Assembly (NCBI GenBank): GCA_946407705.1
Contig: CAMJPC010000002.1
Coordinates: 62,001 to 126,000, forward strand
Source of the DNA: an uncultured Clostridia bacterium
Lineage (GTDB): Bacteria; Bacillota; Clostridia; Saccharofermentanales; Saccharofermentanaceae
DNA length: 64,000 nt
Direction: 5' to 3'
Under the pieces are notes generated by a model. It had not been told where the DNA came from. It worked only from the letters and a program-made list of their open reading frames with translations, and did not search any database. Shown one piece after another: positions 28,298-62,448 of the stretch. Both the position numbers and the translations under genes were made by a program. Numbering within the stretch: position 1 is the first letter of the stretch; every line of letters begins with the position of its first letter.

Positions 28298-29389
28298 TTA
28301 CTTTTTGGAAAGGATCATGTCGTAAAGCGCTATCGCTGAGGCTGCTTCCACGACAGGCACCGCTCTCGGCGCGACACAGGGATCGTGCCTGCCTTCAATG
28401 CTGATCGTCGTATTCTTTTTCGCCGCAAGGTCAACAGTCTCCTGCGTTTTGGAGATGGAAGGCGTAGGCTTTAAAGCGCAATCGAAAACGACAGGAGCTG
28501 CTTCACCGACGCTGATCCCGCCAAGTATTCCTCCGCAGCGGTTTGTCTTAAGCCTGACTTTTTCTTCTTCATCAAAGACAAAAGCATCGTTGTTCTCGGA
28601 GCCCTTGAGGATGGTGCTGTCATAACCTGCACCGAACTCGACCGCTTTAACTGCCGGGATCGCGAAGATCATCTGCGAGATCTTACCCTCTATTCCGTCG
28701 AAGATCGGACCTCCGATGCCTGCGGGAAGTCCTGATATCACGCACTCGATGACTCCGCCCACGGAATCCTGATCCATGCGTGCTTCTTCTATCCTAGCCT
28801 TCATCTTCTCTGCTGCCTCGTCAGAGATCGCAGGGAAATCCTTTTTCGCGCATGCTGCAAGGTCTTCCAAAAACTTCTCATCACGAGGTCCGTGAGCGAA
28901 ATAAGTATCGTCTTCAACATCGAAAACAGACTTCAGATGCGCATGTATCTCAATACCCATCTTCTTCAGTTCCGTCAGGGCGATTGCTCCTGCGATGCAA
29001 AGAGGAGCGGTCATTCTTCCTGAGAAAATACCGCCGCCTGAAGCTGAAGCCTCTTCTCCGTAAAGAATTCCAGCCGTGTAATCGGCATGTGAAGGCCTCG
29101 GGCAGTTCATTATCGAAGCATAGTCCTTCGGCTTTGTATTAGTGTTGTATATGAATCCGTGAAGCACGCCATCCTCAGTTTCAAAAATGACCTCATCGGC
29201 TTCTTTTCGTGGAGTAGACCAGGCGTTCTTTCCGGGTGCTCTTCTCGCCATGAATTCCTTAATGAATCCGGCATCGGGTGTTACGTCTGAAGGCAGCCCC
29301 TTGATATACACGCCGATGGTCTCGCTGTGAGATTCGCCGTGTATCAGAAGTTCCAGTCTGCTGCCGTGATAAGTGCTTTGCATGCTCAT
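28298..29389 (-). CDS. aroC: Chorismate synthase
   Basis: GESHSETIGVYIKGLP...ASGGGIFSGRMTAPLCIAGAIA...QDSVGGVIECVISGLPAGIG...CGGILGGISVGEAAPVVFDCALKPTPSI. Confidence 0.96.
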   Translation of the reverse strand: MSMQSTYHGSRLELLIHGESHSETIGVYIKGLPSDVTPDAGFIKEFMARRAPGKNAWSTPRKEADEVIFETEDGVLHGFIYNTNTKPKDYASIMNCPRPSHADYTAGILYGEEASASGGGIFSGRMTAPLCIAGAIALTELKKMGIEIHAHLKSVFDVEDDTYFAHGPRDEKFLEDLAACAKKDFPAISDEAAEKMKARIEEARMDQDSVGGVIECVISGLPAGIGGPIFDGIEGKISQMIFAIPAVKAVEFGAGYDSTILKGSENNDAFVFDEEEKVRLKTNRCGGILGGISVGEAAPVVFDCALKPTPSISKTQETVDLAAKKNTTISIEGRHDPCVAPRAVPVVEAASAIALYDMILSKK

Positions 29390-30645
29390 AAGATCGCCAT
29401 TCCGTTTTCGATTATCGTTTTAAATTCAGGGAAGGATTTTGAAAGGCAGGAGATATCATCTATCTGAACCTTTCTTCCCGTTCCCGCCGCGCAGAGGACA
29501 GCAGCCATTGCCATGCGGTGATCGTTTGAAGAAGTCAGCGAGATCTCTTCGGGGATATCGCTTCTGACCGCCCCGTAGACCGTGATGGAATCCTCTTCGA
29601 GTTCCGTTTTGATGCCGCATGCCGCAAGCATTTCGCAGACCGCGGATGCCCTGTCTGATTCCTTCACGCGGAGACGCTTTGTTCCGGTAAGGATCGTTTT
29701 CTTTGCTTTGAAAGCTCCCGTAACCGCCATGTAAGGAACGATGTCAGGGATGTCATTGCAGCTCATTTCTATCTCATCGACCGGAGGCTCGCCGTCAGGT
29801 CCCATTACGGATACCGCGCCGTCTTCCGTATCAACTTCCACTCCAAGGCCTTCAAGGAAACCGGTTATGGCCCTGTCGCCCTGGACCGATTCAGTATCAA
29901 GGCCGGTGATCATGGCACCGCCGTTCTTCATGAGAGAACCGAGACAGAGGAGGAACGCTCCGTTGCTCCAGTCGCCTTCGACTGTGAACCTGCCTGAAGG
30001 GACAGCGATTCCGGCACGTCCGGGAACGGTGAAAACATTGCCTTCCCTGGTTACTTCAATGCCGTATTTCCTTAAGACTGATACCGTGAGTTCGATGTAA
30101 TGGATGGAACTCATCTCGCCCGTAACCGTTACCGTTGAAGGCTTGTTGAAATTGGAAAGAGCCATCAGAAGTCCTGAAATGTACTGTGATGAGACGCTTC
30201 CGTCGATCGTGTAGTTGCCCGCCATGAGAAAACCTGCTGCGGTAACTGTACGCTTTTCGAGGTCCTTTTCGATGGTGACACCGAAAGGTGCAAGGCAGGA
30301 AGCAAGATCTTCGACCGGGCGTTCAACCAGACGTCCCTTTGTCGTGAAGACCATCTTTCTCTCGGGAGAGCCCTTGAGCGCGAGTGCCAGAGGGATCATG
30401 AAACGCAGTGTGGAACCGCTCTCATTTGCGGGAAGAATTATGTCATCATCGCCTGTTTCGGAAGCCGCGGAAAGCTCTGCCAGACACCTTTTCGTCGCGA
30501 TGACGTCATCGTTGTCGTCCTTCCTGATGTTCAGGTAATCACCCCTCGCACCAAGTACGAAATTGACTATAAGTTCTCTGTGATATGCCGATTTGGATGC
30601 CGGAGCCTTGAGGTCAAGCATCAGGTTCTTGCAGGCTATGATCAT
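29386..30645 (-). CDS. aroA: 3-phosphoshikimate 1-carboxyvinyltransferase (EPSP synthase)
   Basis: APASKSAYHRELIV...ANESGSTLRFMIPLAL...GSVSSQYISGLLMAL...LRVKESDRASAVCEML...SSNDHRMAMAAVLCA. Confidence 0.95.
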   Translation of the reverse strand: MIIACKNLMLDLKAPASKSAYHRELIVNFVLGARGDYLNIRKDDNDDVIATKRCLAELSAASETGDDDIILPANESGSTLRFMIPLALALKGSPERKMVFTTKGRLVERPVEDLASCLAPFGVTIEKDLEKRTVTAAGFLMAGNYTIDGSVSSQYISGLLMALSNFNKPSTVTVTGEMSSIHYIELTVSVLRKYGIEVTREGNVFTVPGRAGIAVPSGRFTVEGDWSNGAFLLCLGSLMKNGGAMITGLDTESVQGDRAITGFLEGLGVEVDTEDGAVSVMGPDGEPPVDEIEMSCNDIPDIVPYMAVTGAFKAKKTILTGTKRLRVKESDRASAVCEMLAACGIKTELEEDSITVYGAVRSDIPEEISLTSSNDHRMAMAAVLCAAGTGRKVQIDDISCLSKSFPEFKTIIENGMAIL

Positions 30646-31709
30646 GTTGAAAGGAACCTCATGAATTCTTCGGGTGTCATCTTCCTGATCTCGGCTTCGC
30701 CGATCTTGTTAACAAGTATAACCGAAATGGTGCCGCCGCGCTTCTTCTTGTCGTTCATCGCGCCTTTGACGATCGCCTCAGGAGTGATGCCGTCACTTAC
30801 CGGAAGCTTGTAGAGCTTCATGAGATCCTTCATCCTCTCAGCGGTCTTAACGTCAAGCGTGCCTGCCCTGACACATGCGTCGATCATAATGCCCATTCCC
30901 TTGGCAACGCAGAGTCCGTGCGGCTTTGTGTATCCGCTGTCACGCTCTATTACGTGACCGATCGTATGTCCGTAATTGAGGATCTGGCGTCTTCCGTTAT
31001 CATTCTCGTCTTCCCTGACGACACTTGCCTTGTCAGCGACGTTCATGGCAACGATGTCTTCAAGAAGATCTTCGTCATCCCTGATGTTGCCGTTTGCTTT
31101 TTCGAGTCTTTCAAGTAAATCAGGATCGACGATGAAAGCGTGCTTTACGACTTCGCCCATTCCCTCGGTGAAAACCTCTTCAGGCAGTGTCTTAAGAAAA
31201 GAAATATCCTCTATAACTACTGCAGGCTGCCAGAAAGCGCCGACCTGATTCTTGCCCATGGCAATGTCTATTCCGGTCTTGCCTCCGATCGACGCATCGA
31301 CCATCGCAAGAAGCGAAGTGGGAACCTGAATGACGTTAATTCCGCGGAGGAACGTTGCCGCGGCAAAGCCTGCCATGTCGGTGGTCACGCCACCGCCAAG
31401 GCCGACTACGATGTCAGTTCTCGTAAAGCCTGCTTCAGCCATCTTGTTCCACATGGCGGCAACGGCTTCGATTCCCTTGGATCTCTCGCCCGCCTCGAAA
31501 ACATAGTCAATGGCTTCGATCCCTGCACCAACCAATTCTTCCTTTACCCTTTCAAGATAAAGAGGAGCGACATTAGTCTCTGATACGATCAAAGCCTTGA
31601 CCGTGCCCGGGCAGAGTTTCTTAACTTCGGAACCGATTGCTTTGGAAGCGCCCTTCCCGATGATAACGTCGTACTCTTTTGAAGCTGCCGGAAAACGGAC
31701 TGTCCTCAT
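30642..31709 (-). CDS. aroB: 3-dehydroquinate synthase
   Basis: VVGLGGGVTTDMAGFAAATFLRGINVIQVPTSLLAMVDASIGGKTGIDIAMGKNQVGAFWQP. Confidence 0.96.
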   Translation of the reverse strand: MRTVRFPAASKEYDVIIGKGASKAIGSEVKKLCPGTVKALIVSETNVAPLYLERVKEELVGAGIEAIDYVFEAGERSKGIEAVAAMWNKMAEAGFTRTDIVVGLGGGVTTDMAGFAAATFLRGINVIQVPTSLLAMVDASIGGKTGIDIAMGKNQVGAFWQPAVVIEDISFLKTLPEEVFTEGMGEVVKHAFIVDPDLLERLEKANGNIRDDEDLLEDIVAMNVADKASVVREDENDNGRRQILNYGHTIGHVIERDSGYTKPHGLCVAKGMGIMIDACVRAGTLDVKTAERMKDLMKLYKLPVSDGITPEAIVKGAMNDKKKRGGTISVILVNKIGEAEIRKMTPEEFMRFLST

Positions 31710-32548
31710 ATTCCGTCAACCTCCTCCTTGATCTTCCTGCCTTCATCGAGCAGGCTGCGGAGGCCGTCGAAATCCTCATCTTCCAAAGCCTTTTTGTACT
31801 TGGCAAGTTCTTCCTGAAGATGGTCGATCTCGAAAATGAGATTGTCCCTGTTCTCAAGGAAAAGCTGTGTCCACATTGTCGGATTGAGCCATGCGACTCT
31901 TGTCATGTCCTTGTATGAACCTGCTGAGAATCCCTTGTGGTTTCTTGCAGAGGGGCTCTTGATGTATGCGTTGGAGACAAGATGCGCCATCTGTGAAGTG
32001 AAGGCGATCATCTTGTCGTGCTCGTCAGCATGAGCAAGATGGAAGCTTCCGAACTGACAAGGTTCAAGAAGTTCCTTGACCCTGTCCAAAAGGAACATGT
32101 CGTCAAATACCGGAGGCACAACGACCATCGGCGCGTCCTTGTACATGTCGCCTTTTGCGTATGCCATGCCTGAGAACTTCGTGCCTGCCATGGGGTGGCA
32201 GCCGACGAATAAGAAGCCTGCTTCTTTGGCTATCTCAAAGCCCTTTTCGCATACGAATCTCTTGGTGCCGCATGCATCGATTACCAGACCGTCTTTGTTG
32301 AAGTGATCCTTGTGGTCTTCCATCCACTTGATGGTCGCCTCGGGATAGAGTGAGAGGATAACGAGATCGCATTTGCCCAGATTCTCATCAGTGAGTTCAT
32401 CATCGATGATGCCCTGCATCTTAGCCATCTGTGTCGTGCTGTTTGTACGGTTCCAGCCATAGACCGTTGACTCTGAATTCTCTTTGTAGGCCTTCGCGAA
32501 AGATGCGCCTATCAGACCTAATCCGACTACACCGACTGTTATCTTCAT
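31706..32548 (-). CDS. tyrA: Prephenate dehydrogenase
   Basis: VGVVGLGLIGASFAKAYKE...GCHPMAGTKFSGMAYA...MIAFTSQMAHLVSNAYI. Confidence 0.92.
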   Translation of the reverse strand: MKITVGVVGLGLIGASFAKAYKENSESTVYGWNRTNSTTQMAKMQGIIDDELTDENLGKCDLVILSLYPEATIKWMEDHKDHFNKDGLVIDACGTKRFVCEKGFEIAKEAGFLFVGCHPMAGTKFSGMAYAKGDMYKDAPMVVVPPVFDDMFLLDRVKELLEPCQFGSFHLAHADEHDKMIAFTSQMAHLVSNAYIKSPSARNHKGFSAGSYKDMTRVAWLNPTMWTQLFLENRDNLIFEIDHLQEELAKYKKALEDEDFDGLRSLLDEGRKIKEEVDGI

Positions 32549-32572
32549 ATAATGCACTTCCTTTTCGGTAAG

Positions 32573-32606: not shown

Positions 32607-33605
32607 TTACAGAATACTCCTTGCCTTTCCGATCGCGTCCATTACATCAGTGAACTGAGCCGGAGTAAGCTGCTGTGCCGCATCCGAAAGAGCCTTCTCG
32701 GGGCAGGTATGCACTTCGATCTCGAGAGCATCCGCGCCTGATACGACCGCTGCCATGGACATCGGCTTGATGAGGTTGGACTTGCCTGTCGCGTGAGAAG
32801 GATCTCCAACGACGGGAAGGTGCGTGATCTGCTTGAGAACGGAAATCGCACTTACATCGAAAGTGTTTCTCGTGTAAGTCTCGTATGTTCTGATTCCGCG
32901 CTCGCAAAGGATAACGTTAGGATTGCCTTCGCTCATGATGTACTCAGCGCTCATGAGGAGCTCCTTGATGGTAGCGGAAAGACCGCGCTTGAGAAGGATA
33001 GGCTTGCCTGTCTTGCCCAAAGCTTTGAGAAGGTCGAAGTTCTGCATGTTGCGTGCGCCGACCTGAAGGAAATCGACATCCTCAAAGACCGGAATCTGCT
33101 CGGGGCTCATGATCTCGGAGCAGATGGGAAGTCCCGTCTCTTTCTTTGCTTCAAGAAGGAGTCTGATTCCTTCTTCATGAAGTCCCTGGAAATCGTAAGG
33201 AGAAGTCCTCGGCTTGAATGCGCCGCCTCTGAGGATCGTTGCGCCTGCCGCCTTAACTGCCTTTGCGCAGCTCATGATCTGCTCTTCGCTTTCAACGGAG
33301 CAGGGTCCTGCGATGACCGCGAAATTGCCTCCGCCGATCTTTACGCCGCTGACATCGACAACCGTATCTTCAGGATGGAACTTTCTGTTTGCCTTCTTGA
33401 ATGTCTCAGATACTCTCGTAACGCTTTCAACGATCTCAAGACCCTGAAGGAGGTTGATGTCGATTGCGGATGTATCTCCGATAAGGCCCAATACCGTGCA
33501 ATATTCACCCTTTGACTCATTGACCTTGAGGCCTATGCTCTCAAACCATGAAACAAGATTCTTTATCTGTTCCTTCGTAGCTGTGTTCTTAAGTACTGCA
33601 ATCAT
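32607..33605 (-). CDS. aroF: 3-deoxy-7-phosphoheptulonate (DAHP) synthase with N-terminal regulatory-type domain
   Basis: [49 protein letters not shown]...[20 protein letters not shown]...[20 protein letters not shown]. Confidence 0.95.
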
Positions 33606-33634
33606 TTCCTGTTCTCCTTCTTTCTCTTGAAATC

Positions 33635-33672
33635 AAAAACGCTGCCCGGGCTTTGCGTACCCTTGCAGCGTT
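33635..33672 (-). terminator. Attenuator terminator upstream of aroF
   Basis: Minus strand AACGCTGC-AAGGGTACGCAAAGCCCGG-GCAGCGTT-TTTGATTT; perfect 8-bp arms plus inner GGG/CCC. Confidence 0.83.
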
Positions 33673-33721
33673 GATTCTTAACTTGGTTTAATTAAGGTTT
33701 TCTCGCGCAACAAAAGCCGCT

Positions 33722-33784
33722 TCAGACTTTATCTCCGAAGTAGTAATAATAGTTATACGCAAAAAAGAAAACCGCAGTCTTCAA
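33722..33784 (-). CDS. Putative aromatic amino acid attenuator leader peptide MKTAVFFFAYNYYYYFGDKV
   Basis: TTG start at 33784, GGAG 10 nt upstream, 20 codons with 4 Phe and 5 Tyr, stop immediately before the predicted antiterminator arm. Confidence 0.82.
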   Translation of the reverse strand: MKTAVFFFAYNYYYYFGDKV

Positions 33785-33850
33785 TTTGAGATGTCTCCTT
33801 TTGAAAAACTGCGGTAATTAAAACACACAAACGTAAGTGCTGTCAAGGTG

Positions 33851-34381
33851 TCAGGCGAAATCCACTTCACCCGTCTTCTCATTGATAAGCTCGACAACAT
33901 TCTCGGGCTGGATATCGAGCGCCAATGCGATCTCATTGTTCATCCTGACCTTCGCGTCATTCAGTGCGCGCTCGTCCTGGGCATTGAGGTGCTTGCCTTC
34001 TCCGGAGAGCTTTCTCGCATGCATCTTGATCAGGTGGATCATGCTCATGATATCCTCGCGTGAACCGTTGACGATGATGTCAGCAAACGCATCCTTACGG
34101 TCGTTCCTGTCCTCGATCCACTCGAGCTTGTCATAAGGGATCTTGTCTATAAGAGCCATTGCTTCTTTCTTTGACAGTACCGGACGGATCTTGTCGACCT
34201 GCGCCTGATTCTCGAAAGGCACGTATACGACCTGTGACTGTCTTACGAAAAGAGGCTTCAAAACATAATATTTCTGCGGTTTTTCTTTGAAAAAACTGAT
34301 GTCCTTGATAGCATCGATCTGGCACACACCGCTGCCAGCGTAAACAATGTTGTCTCCAACCTTAAAGCTCATATAGACCAC
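33851..34381 (-). CDS. CarD/CdnL-type transcription factor
   Basis: FKVGDNIVYAGSGVCQIDAIKDI...YYVLKPLFVRQSQVVYVPFEN. Start may be the internal ATG at MSFKVGDN. Confidence 0.88.
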   Translation of the reverse strand: MVYMSFKVGDNIVYAGSGVCQIDAIKDISFFKEKPQKYYVLKPLFVRQSQVVYVPFENQAQVDKIRPVLSKKEAMALIDKIPYDKLEWIEDRNDRKDAFADIIVNGSREDIMSMIHLIKMHARKLSGEGKHLNAQDERALNDAKVRMNNEIALALDIQPENVVELINEKTGEVDFA

Positions 34382-62159: not shown

Positions 62160-62448
62160 CACAACTGAATATTATCACAAAGGCTGTGACGAAGAGGTCT
62201 GCAGATCTATTGATCTTACAGAGAGCCGGGTTAGCTGAGAAACGGTGCTTCGATAACTGCAATAGACTATCACTTCCGAGCCGGCATTCCGAAAGGGTTT
62301 TCCCGAGTAGACAGTGCCCGTTATGCTGCGTTAATGTAAAGGAGTTGTTAGACTTCGAAAGTGGCAGCCGCAAGGCTTGCAAATTGAGTGGTACCGCGGA
62401 TTTTATTCGTCTCAATGTCCAGGAAGGATGTTGGGGCGCTTTTTTTTG
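62160..62448 (+). ncRNA. T-box leader (tRNA-sensing)
   Basis: Stem I-type motif ACAGAGAGCCGGGTTAGCTGAGA, T-box GAGTGGTACCGCGG (62386-62399), terminator CGTCTCAATGTCC-AGGA-AGGATGTTGGGGCG-CTTTTTTTT (62408-62447). Confidence 0.93.

Follow-up and report, generated by a model that had tools for sequence, protein, structure and literature searches.

What sets the output of a shikimate-pathway operon when the short stretch ahead of its first gene encodes a small peptide crowded with phenylalanine and tyrosine? The locus lies in a 64,000-nt window, the whole stretch of DNA analyzed here, which covers positions 62,001-126,000 of contig CAMJPC010000002.1 (GCA_946407705.1) from an uncultured Clostridia bacterium of the Saccharofermentanaceae. 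The host is a gut bacterium of the class Clostridia. Behind the leader the operon runs in the order aroF-tyrA-aroB-aroA-aroC, and a carD-like gene is the neighbor on the 5' side:

33851-34381: carD-like gene, 5' neighbor of the leader (Pfam CarD domain)
32607-33605, minus strand: aroF, DAHP (3-deoxy-7-phosphoheptulonate) synthase, first gene of the operon (NCBIfam NF006421, 483 bits, cutoff 335; second profile match TIGR01361, 394 bits, cutoff 268)
31706-32557, minus strand: tyrA-like prephenate dehydrogenase (Pfam PF02153 and PF20463 above cut-off; NCBIfam matches under cut-off)
30642-31709, minus strand: aroB, 3-dehydroquinate synthase (TIGR01357, 353 bits, cutoff 305)
29386-30645, minus strand: aroA, 3-phosphoshikimate 1-carboxyvinyltransferase (TIGR01356, E 3.6e-72, under the curated cut-off)
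28298-29389, minus strand: aroC, chorismate synthase (TIGR00033, 313 bits, cutoff 212)

The start codon of aroF is the ATG at 33605, ~30 nt 3' of a terminator hairpin. No second DAHP synthase of this family was found in the window's genome, in which aroF is the sole match.

The original prediction placed a 20-codon ORF in the gap between the carD-like gene and aroF, with a GGAG 10 nt ahead of a TTG start and nine Phe/Tyr codons within 13 positions. Reading the sequence, we found the ORF and its ribosome-binding site just there; the nine aromatic codons stand as well, but their span shrinks from 13 codons to 11 consecutive ones:

33795-33798, minus strand: Shine-Dalgarno GGAG of the leader ORF, 10 nt 5' of the TTG at 33784
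33722-33784, minus strand: leader peptide ORF MKTAVFFFAYNYYYYFGDKV, 20 codons, TTG start, TGA stop (33724-33722)
33737-33769, minus strand: control codons, nine Phe/Tyr in codons 6-16

The observation of the leader itself is confirmed as real. Dinucleotide-preserving shuffling of the 320 nt upstream, repeated 20,000 times, never gave a Shine-Dalgarno-preceded ORF with eight or more Phe/Tyr codons per 12; the leader has nine. Among the 653 Shine-Dalgarno-preceded ORFs of 10-45 amino acids on both strands of the 64 kb, the leader ranks first and the runner-up has six in 12. Phe/Tyr enrichment across the genus is confined to the ORF frame (8.9 codons per leader versus 1.8 and 1.4 in the other frames). 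The control cluster is built from TAC, TAT, TTT and TTC, all four of which are used, with frequent exchange between Phe and Tyr and synonymous change too; Trp occurs in none of the genus leaders. We used this frame-specific content as coding evidence in place of pairwise codon-position counts. Within the A20 clade, differences at codon positions 1, 2 and 3 number 130, 346 and 333, and such counts alone do not prove coding, partly because a Phe-Tyr exchange is a change at position 2. A search of viral contigs with a 26-nt piece of the leader returned nothing.

Downstream of the leader, a terminator had been described with arms at 33672-33665 and 33645-33638 and a T run ahead of aroF, and this structure is indeed present. 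Part of it can be drawn into a second, competing fold:

33639-33671, minus strand: intrinsic terminator hairpin ACGCUGC AA GGGU ACGCAAA GCCC GG GCAGCGU, predicted at -19.4 kcal/mol
33635-33639, minus strand: U run of the terminator
33706-33720, minus strand: arm 2, the antiterminator 5' arm GCG-GCUUUUGU-U-GCG, starting 16 nt past the last Phe codon
33655-33670, minus strand: arm 3, CGC-U-GCAAGGGU-A-CGC, common to the antiterminator and the terminator by pairing

The best pairing of arm 2 with arm 3 (33720-33706 with 33670-33655) has 14 pairs at -17.9 kcal/mol versus -19.4 for the terminator. The two folds differ so little in energy here that kinetics, the timing of events, must decide which one forms. 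Of the antiterminator as originally drawn, the mutual exclusion and both RNA segments hold up; its register, GCGGC/GCUGC plus GUUG/CAAC, does not, and was set aside for the stronger 14-pair alignment. Other clades of the genus carry GUGGUUUGUGC/GCACGGAUCAC-type arms with 11-14 pairs. In the 31 distinct arm pairs of that type, the fixed register is 86% paired versus 27-48% for slid registers, and compensatory changes (U-A/C-G, A-U/G-C and G-C/A-U) fall at three arm 2:arm 3 positions.

Cognate arms pair better than the swapped-arm mean at 70/74 genus and 39/40 wider loci. Mononucleotide shuffles of arm 2 give a mean z of -3.0 in the genus and -2.3 in the wider set, and genus arms are the best of 100 shuffles in 45%; for about half of the sequences, composition-only shuffles are nearly as good, the arms being short and rich in G and U. 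Read from sequence, the case for the antiterminator is carried by covariation and spacing, and the shuffle contrast is weaker. Our first automatic terminator caller picked up hairpins inside the leader at some wider loci; the statistics come from a stricter one, with which 40 of 52 wider loci are kept. Under the strict rules, a terminator lies between leader and aroF at 78/80 genus loci.

How general is this arrangement? Of 87 same-genus genomes, 83 yielded a DAHP synthase, and we compared the regions upstream of it. A Phe/Tyr-rich leader, beginning with ATG, GTG or TTG, occurs at every intact, fully readable orthologous aroF of the genus, with aroF identity down to 68%, and GGAG-like sites lie 5' of most homologous leaders. 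The control codons are kept in all 78 intact genus leaders analyzed. Between clades the peptides vary (MKTAVFFYAYSYYYYFREKN, MNRNFYAFAYNYYYYFTNVK, MKSEVFTFAYFYFYFGNDSQSDLCA, MNKNFYFGTYYFFTYFAKSKA) and the aromatic cluster is kept. Exceptions are one locus that sits at a contig end and another that encodes a second DAHP synthase, 48% identical. Homologs that keep the hairpins and lose the Phe/Tyr codons would count against the original prediction; sought throughout the genus, this pattern turned up only at L022 (G062:C27), where the leader start is followed by what looks like a 29-nt frameshifting deletion, which leaves ATG CTA TTA CTA CTA CTT TAG and spares the hairpins. This deletion may be a natural knock-out or an assembly error.

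Beyond the genus we assembled 80 named loci, mostly MAGs titled Clostridia, Oscillospiraceae, Ruminococcus, Lachnospiraceae and the like, of which 73 outside the genus were usable. Most of the 80 carry such leaders, and the named strain Aminicella lysinilytica DSM 28287 is in the set. A cluster of at least six Phe/Tyr codons is present in 84% of the genus and 71% of the 73 usable wider Clostridia loci, with shuffles at ~0.5% per upstream region. In a class-wide draw of aroF at looser settings, aromatic-rich uORFs appeared at 46/78 loci and in 31/47 families (shuffles 7%), and Trp codons join the cluster in some families. The cross-genome comparison suggested with the original prediction has in this way returned both covarying arms and conserved Phe/Tyr runs. 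The leader ORF, its Phe/Tyr content, Shine-Dalgarno site, terminator and antiterminator are all conserved within the genus, and conservation extends in looser form across the class.

The wider set also yielded two side observations. An FYFSxGYF...CCxK-like leader, sometimes with Trp, recurs at eleven loci and in five families of the class-wide draw, possibly as a separate sub-lineage that counts Trp too. Six contigs titled Treponema, Bacteroidaceae, Lentisphaerae, Thermoguttaceae or Kiritimatiellae carry a Clostridia-like aroF, some with a leader; these titles are probably binning or naming errors, and we did not count them as presence in those phyla.

The spacing of the elements speaks to what the leader might do. 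In the genus, the median distance from the last Phe/Tyr codon to the start of arm 2 is 16 nt (5th-95th percentile 15-18); in the wider set it is 17 nt. The end of the stop codon lies 12-33 nt after that codon in the genus and 9-66 nt in the wider set, before or beyond arm 2. The start of arm 2 is locked to the last aromatic codon and not to the stop codon, whose position shifts by more than 50 nt across the class. In toeprints, the leading edge of the ribosome lies ~10 nt past the A-site codon. The ~16-nt spacing fits this footprint, since a ribosome stalled at the last aromatic codon would leave arm 2 just free and a ribosome at the stop codon would cover it partly or fully.

We put this into a masking model, with a footprint reaching ~10 nt past the A-site codon, that gives the probability of arm 3 pairing with arm 2 ahead of the synthesis of arm 4. 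The modeled mean for the genus is 0.76 for a ribosome on Phe/Tyr codons, 0.28 for one at the stop codon and 0.32 ribosome-free; the window's own values are 0.77, 0.41 and 0.37. At 78/78 genus and 36/40 wider loci, a ribosome on Phe/Tyr gives a higher modeled probability than one at the stop codon. The direction originally claimed, ON when stalled on Phe/Tyr and OFF at the stop, is thereby the one that the masking calculation predicts. In some clades the ribosome-free value is itself high (L057, 0.76; L062, 0.69), and these leaders are predicted to antiterminate without a ribosome, so default termination would not be uniform. In attenuators of this class a 1:2 pause/protector hairpin causes termination on an untranslated leader, and on that feature the modeled values differ by clade.

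We consider it very probable, on sequence and modeling grounds, that a ribosome-mediated leader-peptide attenuator adjusts transcription of aroF-tyrA-aroB-aroA-aroC to the available charged tRNA-Phe and tRNA-Tyr. The leader shows four features of this class: a Shine-Dalgarno-preceded uORF, a cluster of codons for pathway amino acids, a terminator, and an antiterminator placed for a stall/stop switch. Transcription would start near 33810, and a ribosome would load at the leader ORF at 33784. When Phe or Tyr is scarce, the ribosome would stall in codons 6-16 with its leading edge ~10 nt past the stalled codon, leaving arm 2 (33720-33706) free to pair with arm 3 (33670-33655) before arm 4 exists; the terminator would then be blocked and the operon read. 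When Phe and Tyr are plentiful, the ribosome would reach the stop codon at 33722 and cover the first part of arm 2, whereupon arm 3 would pair with arm 4 (33645-33639) and RNA polymerase would halt at the U run. The elements, their conservation, the covariation of the arms, the spacing and the predicted pairing switch are computed. We infer the use of the promoter, translation of the leader, the timing of ribosome and polymerase, and which way the cell responds.

A candidate promoter lies directly 3' of the carD-like stop codon, and a further hairpin surrounds the start of the leader:

33841-33846, minus strand: TTGACA, -35 element of the candidate leader/aroF promoter
33817-33822, minus strand: TTTAAT, its -10 element, with an 18-nt spacer to the -35
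33771-33815, minus strand: 5' hairpin of ACCGCAGT (33815-33808) and ACTGCGGT (33778-33771) around the leader Shine-Dalgarno site and start codon, from the MFE structure

A consensus promoter scan of the window did not report this promoter because the scan requires A at -10 position 2, which here is T. Under a permissive pattern, TTGACA-like and TTTAAT-like boxes ~15-20 nt apart lie 5' of the leader start in 75/76 testable genus members. The stem of the 5' hairpin is a perfect 8 bp, followed by UUUUCUUUUUU. In the MKTAV clade only, CTGCGG is found in the leader of 40/43 genus sequences that have the 5' arm CCGCAG, and the hairpin is absent from the other genus clades. It may serve as a polymerase pause, as protection of the 5' end or as a brake on leader translation.

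A second leader in the same genome bears on what is being counted. Outside the window (contig C3 of G000, ~119 kb), the pheA gene of the window's genome is preceded by a leader of its own, MRNFWFTSFAFTFFALTKSE. After it comes UUUUCACUGC, whose pairing partner, GCAGUGAAAA, belongs to the 5' half of a terminator. The 22 pheA leaders of the genus hold on average 7.3 Phe and 0.05 Tyr codons, versus 3.2 Phe and 5.8 Tyr in the aroF leaders. Since pheA leaders are rich in Phe and nearly free of Tyr while aroF leaders have both, the amino acids counted follow the pathway branch that is controlled. These leaders come from 30 PDT loci examined, eight of which lack a leader: six seem for the most part to be another copy of the PDT gene or a wrongly assigned ORF, one has an apparently truncated start and one is without an intact ORF.

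Could the peptide itself be the sensor? In a TnaC-type arrest, the nascent leader peptide would stall the ribosome in response to free Phe, Tyr or a pathway metabolite instead of a lack of charged tRNA. The peptide is conserved within clades (MKTAVFFYAYSYYYYF...) and an Ala recurs in the middle of the cluster, which speaks for such an arrest. Across clades, however, the N-terminus, length, residue order and C-terminus all vary, and only the Phe/Tyr content and the distance to arm 2 are kept; the pheA leaders, of quite different sequence, track Phe. Stalling on an excess amino acid would also switch a biosynthetic operon in the wrong direction, unless the RNA folds worked the other way round. 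We regard peptide arrest as very improbable beside stalling for want of charged tRNA.

The uORF might instead merely tune another sensor on the same leader RNA, such as a metabolite aptamer, a T-box or an RNA-binding protein. In favor of this stand the 5' hairpin over the leader Shine-Dalgarno site and start, which is conserved in one clade, and the T-boxes, which are common in the window's genome: they precede trpE, a trpB-like gene and pheS. None of the six T-boxes of this genome lies at the aroF leader, and the T-box covariance model RF00230 gave no match at 33560-33860 with E up to 10. A scan of the aroF leader region with 4227 Rfam models found no family at E up to 10, only chance scores to eukaryotic snoRNAs and lncRNAs far under cut-off. 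Nine class-wide leaders likewise matched no Rfam family, and the Rfam Phe, Trp, His, Leu and Thr leader families did not match the aroF leader. Conservation covers the uORF, arms 2-4 and the promoter, which leave scant room for a further domain 5' of the ORF. A separate sensor strikes us as very improbable. T-boxes were present in every genome of the family sample, so that the leader peptide is no substitute for a lost T-box system. Elsewhere in the window, a T-box-like leader lies at 62177-62417 on the plus strand (75 bits, under the Rfam gathering score).

There is next to no prospect that a U-rich stretch is being misread as Phe codons beside an ordinary, regulatorily unconnected terminator: the 5' hairpin and UUUUCUUUUUU could resemble a terminator of the carD-like gene, the U tract supplying three Phe codons, but a sister clade has UUUUCUUUUAU there, a weaker terminator tail, and keeps its Phe/Tyr codons nonetheless, and the shuffle controls, recurrence across genus and class, frame-specific Phe/Tyr, covariation and constant spacing together argue that comparative sequence data already refute it.

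Attenuation by charged tRNA supply, the reading we prefer, raises a broader issue. Leader-peptide attenuation has long been viewed as a trait of Proteobacteria and Actinobacteria (PMC2965389). Bacillota are classed at phylum level as having runaway transcription, with RNA polymerase outrunning the ribosome (PMC13323073; reviewed in PMC7858274), and ribosome-timed attenuation would for that reason be expected to work poorly here. This classification is both the chief theoretical objection to our proposal and the chief reason for interest in it. We suggest tentatively, at somewhat less than an even chance, that Clostridia as a class have long controlled aromatic biosynthesis by ribosome-timed attenuation, the sensor being split by branch and the ribosome either close behind the polymerase or synchronized with it by a pause. 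The split would assign Phe and Tyr to the leader at aroF, Phe to that at pheA, and Trp and pheS to T-boxes. If this is true, the ribosome must trail RNA polymerase closely at these leaders, contrary to the phylum-level class, or a dedicated pause must synchronize the two. A widespread E. coli-style attenuator in Clostridia makes coupling in Bacillota directly testable: either it holds at these leaders or a pause restores it. Such an attenuator would also supply a concrete regulatory rule for the shikimate-pathway operons of many gut and rumen bacteria, and a signature for annotation: an aromatic uORF, ~16 nt, arm 2 and a terminator.

Several known systems resemble the aroF leader in part. In open-licence papers we found no account that places Phe/Tyr leaders ahead of aroF or pheA in Clostridia; the aromatic genes of low-GC Gram-positive bacteria have been compared earlier (Panina et al. 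2003, as cited in PMC1262725). The closest in arrangement is the AroR leader of C. glutamicum (Neshat et al. 2014), which, as described in PMC11802643, contains Phe-Tyr-Phe and lies 5' of the aroF operon, where stalling at the Phe/Tyr codons under Phe limitation enhances transcription. By that description both are leader peptides with Phe/Tyr ahead of an aroF DAHP synthase operon. AroR, however, belongs to Actinobacteria, has three aromatic codons and is reported to answer Phe and not Tyr, whereas the present leader belongs to Clostridia, has ~9 and is dominated by Tyr codons in the genus. The Acholeplasma aroF uORF, uORFC-13-1, comes with Phe codon(s), a promoter, an RBS and a terminator, and attenuation was proposed for it (Brewer et al. 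2021, PMC8632094). It is known from 24 examples, only in Acholeplasma and environmental sequences, with at least one Phe codon and a candidate mechanism (PMC8632094); compared by description only, it has no described Tyr run, unlike the present leader.

E. coli pheL-pheA (PMC11802643) shares the aromatic codons, the arm beside the control codons and the mutually exclusive antiterminator and terminator, and would operate in the same manner. It differs in counting Phe only, in controlling pheA and in its gammaproteobacterial host, and it has no recognizable sequence relation to the aroF leader (no Rfam match). Leader-peptide attenuation is also known in Bacillota, from Listeria Rli60 at ilv (PMC5864092), the S. 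aureus ilv leader (PMC5794164) and the His leader of hisS/hisZ in bacilli (PMC2965389). These concern branched-chain amino acids or histidine in the class Bacilli, and the present leader carries Phe/Tyr codons and belongs to Clostridia. The T-box (RF00230) likewise senses tRNA charging and switches between terminator and antiterminator; it binds uncharged tRNA directly, without leader translation, and the aroF leader has none. The original remark that T-box or TRAP control is better known for aromatic genes in this phylum is fair, given the T-boxes at trpE, the trpB-like gene and pheS, but leader peptides, too, have precedents in Bacillota and at aroF. Set against these systems, the aroF leader is a taxonomically broad new case of a known attenuation design, with precedents at aroF in Corynebacterium and, as a candidate, in Acholeplasma.
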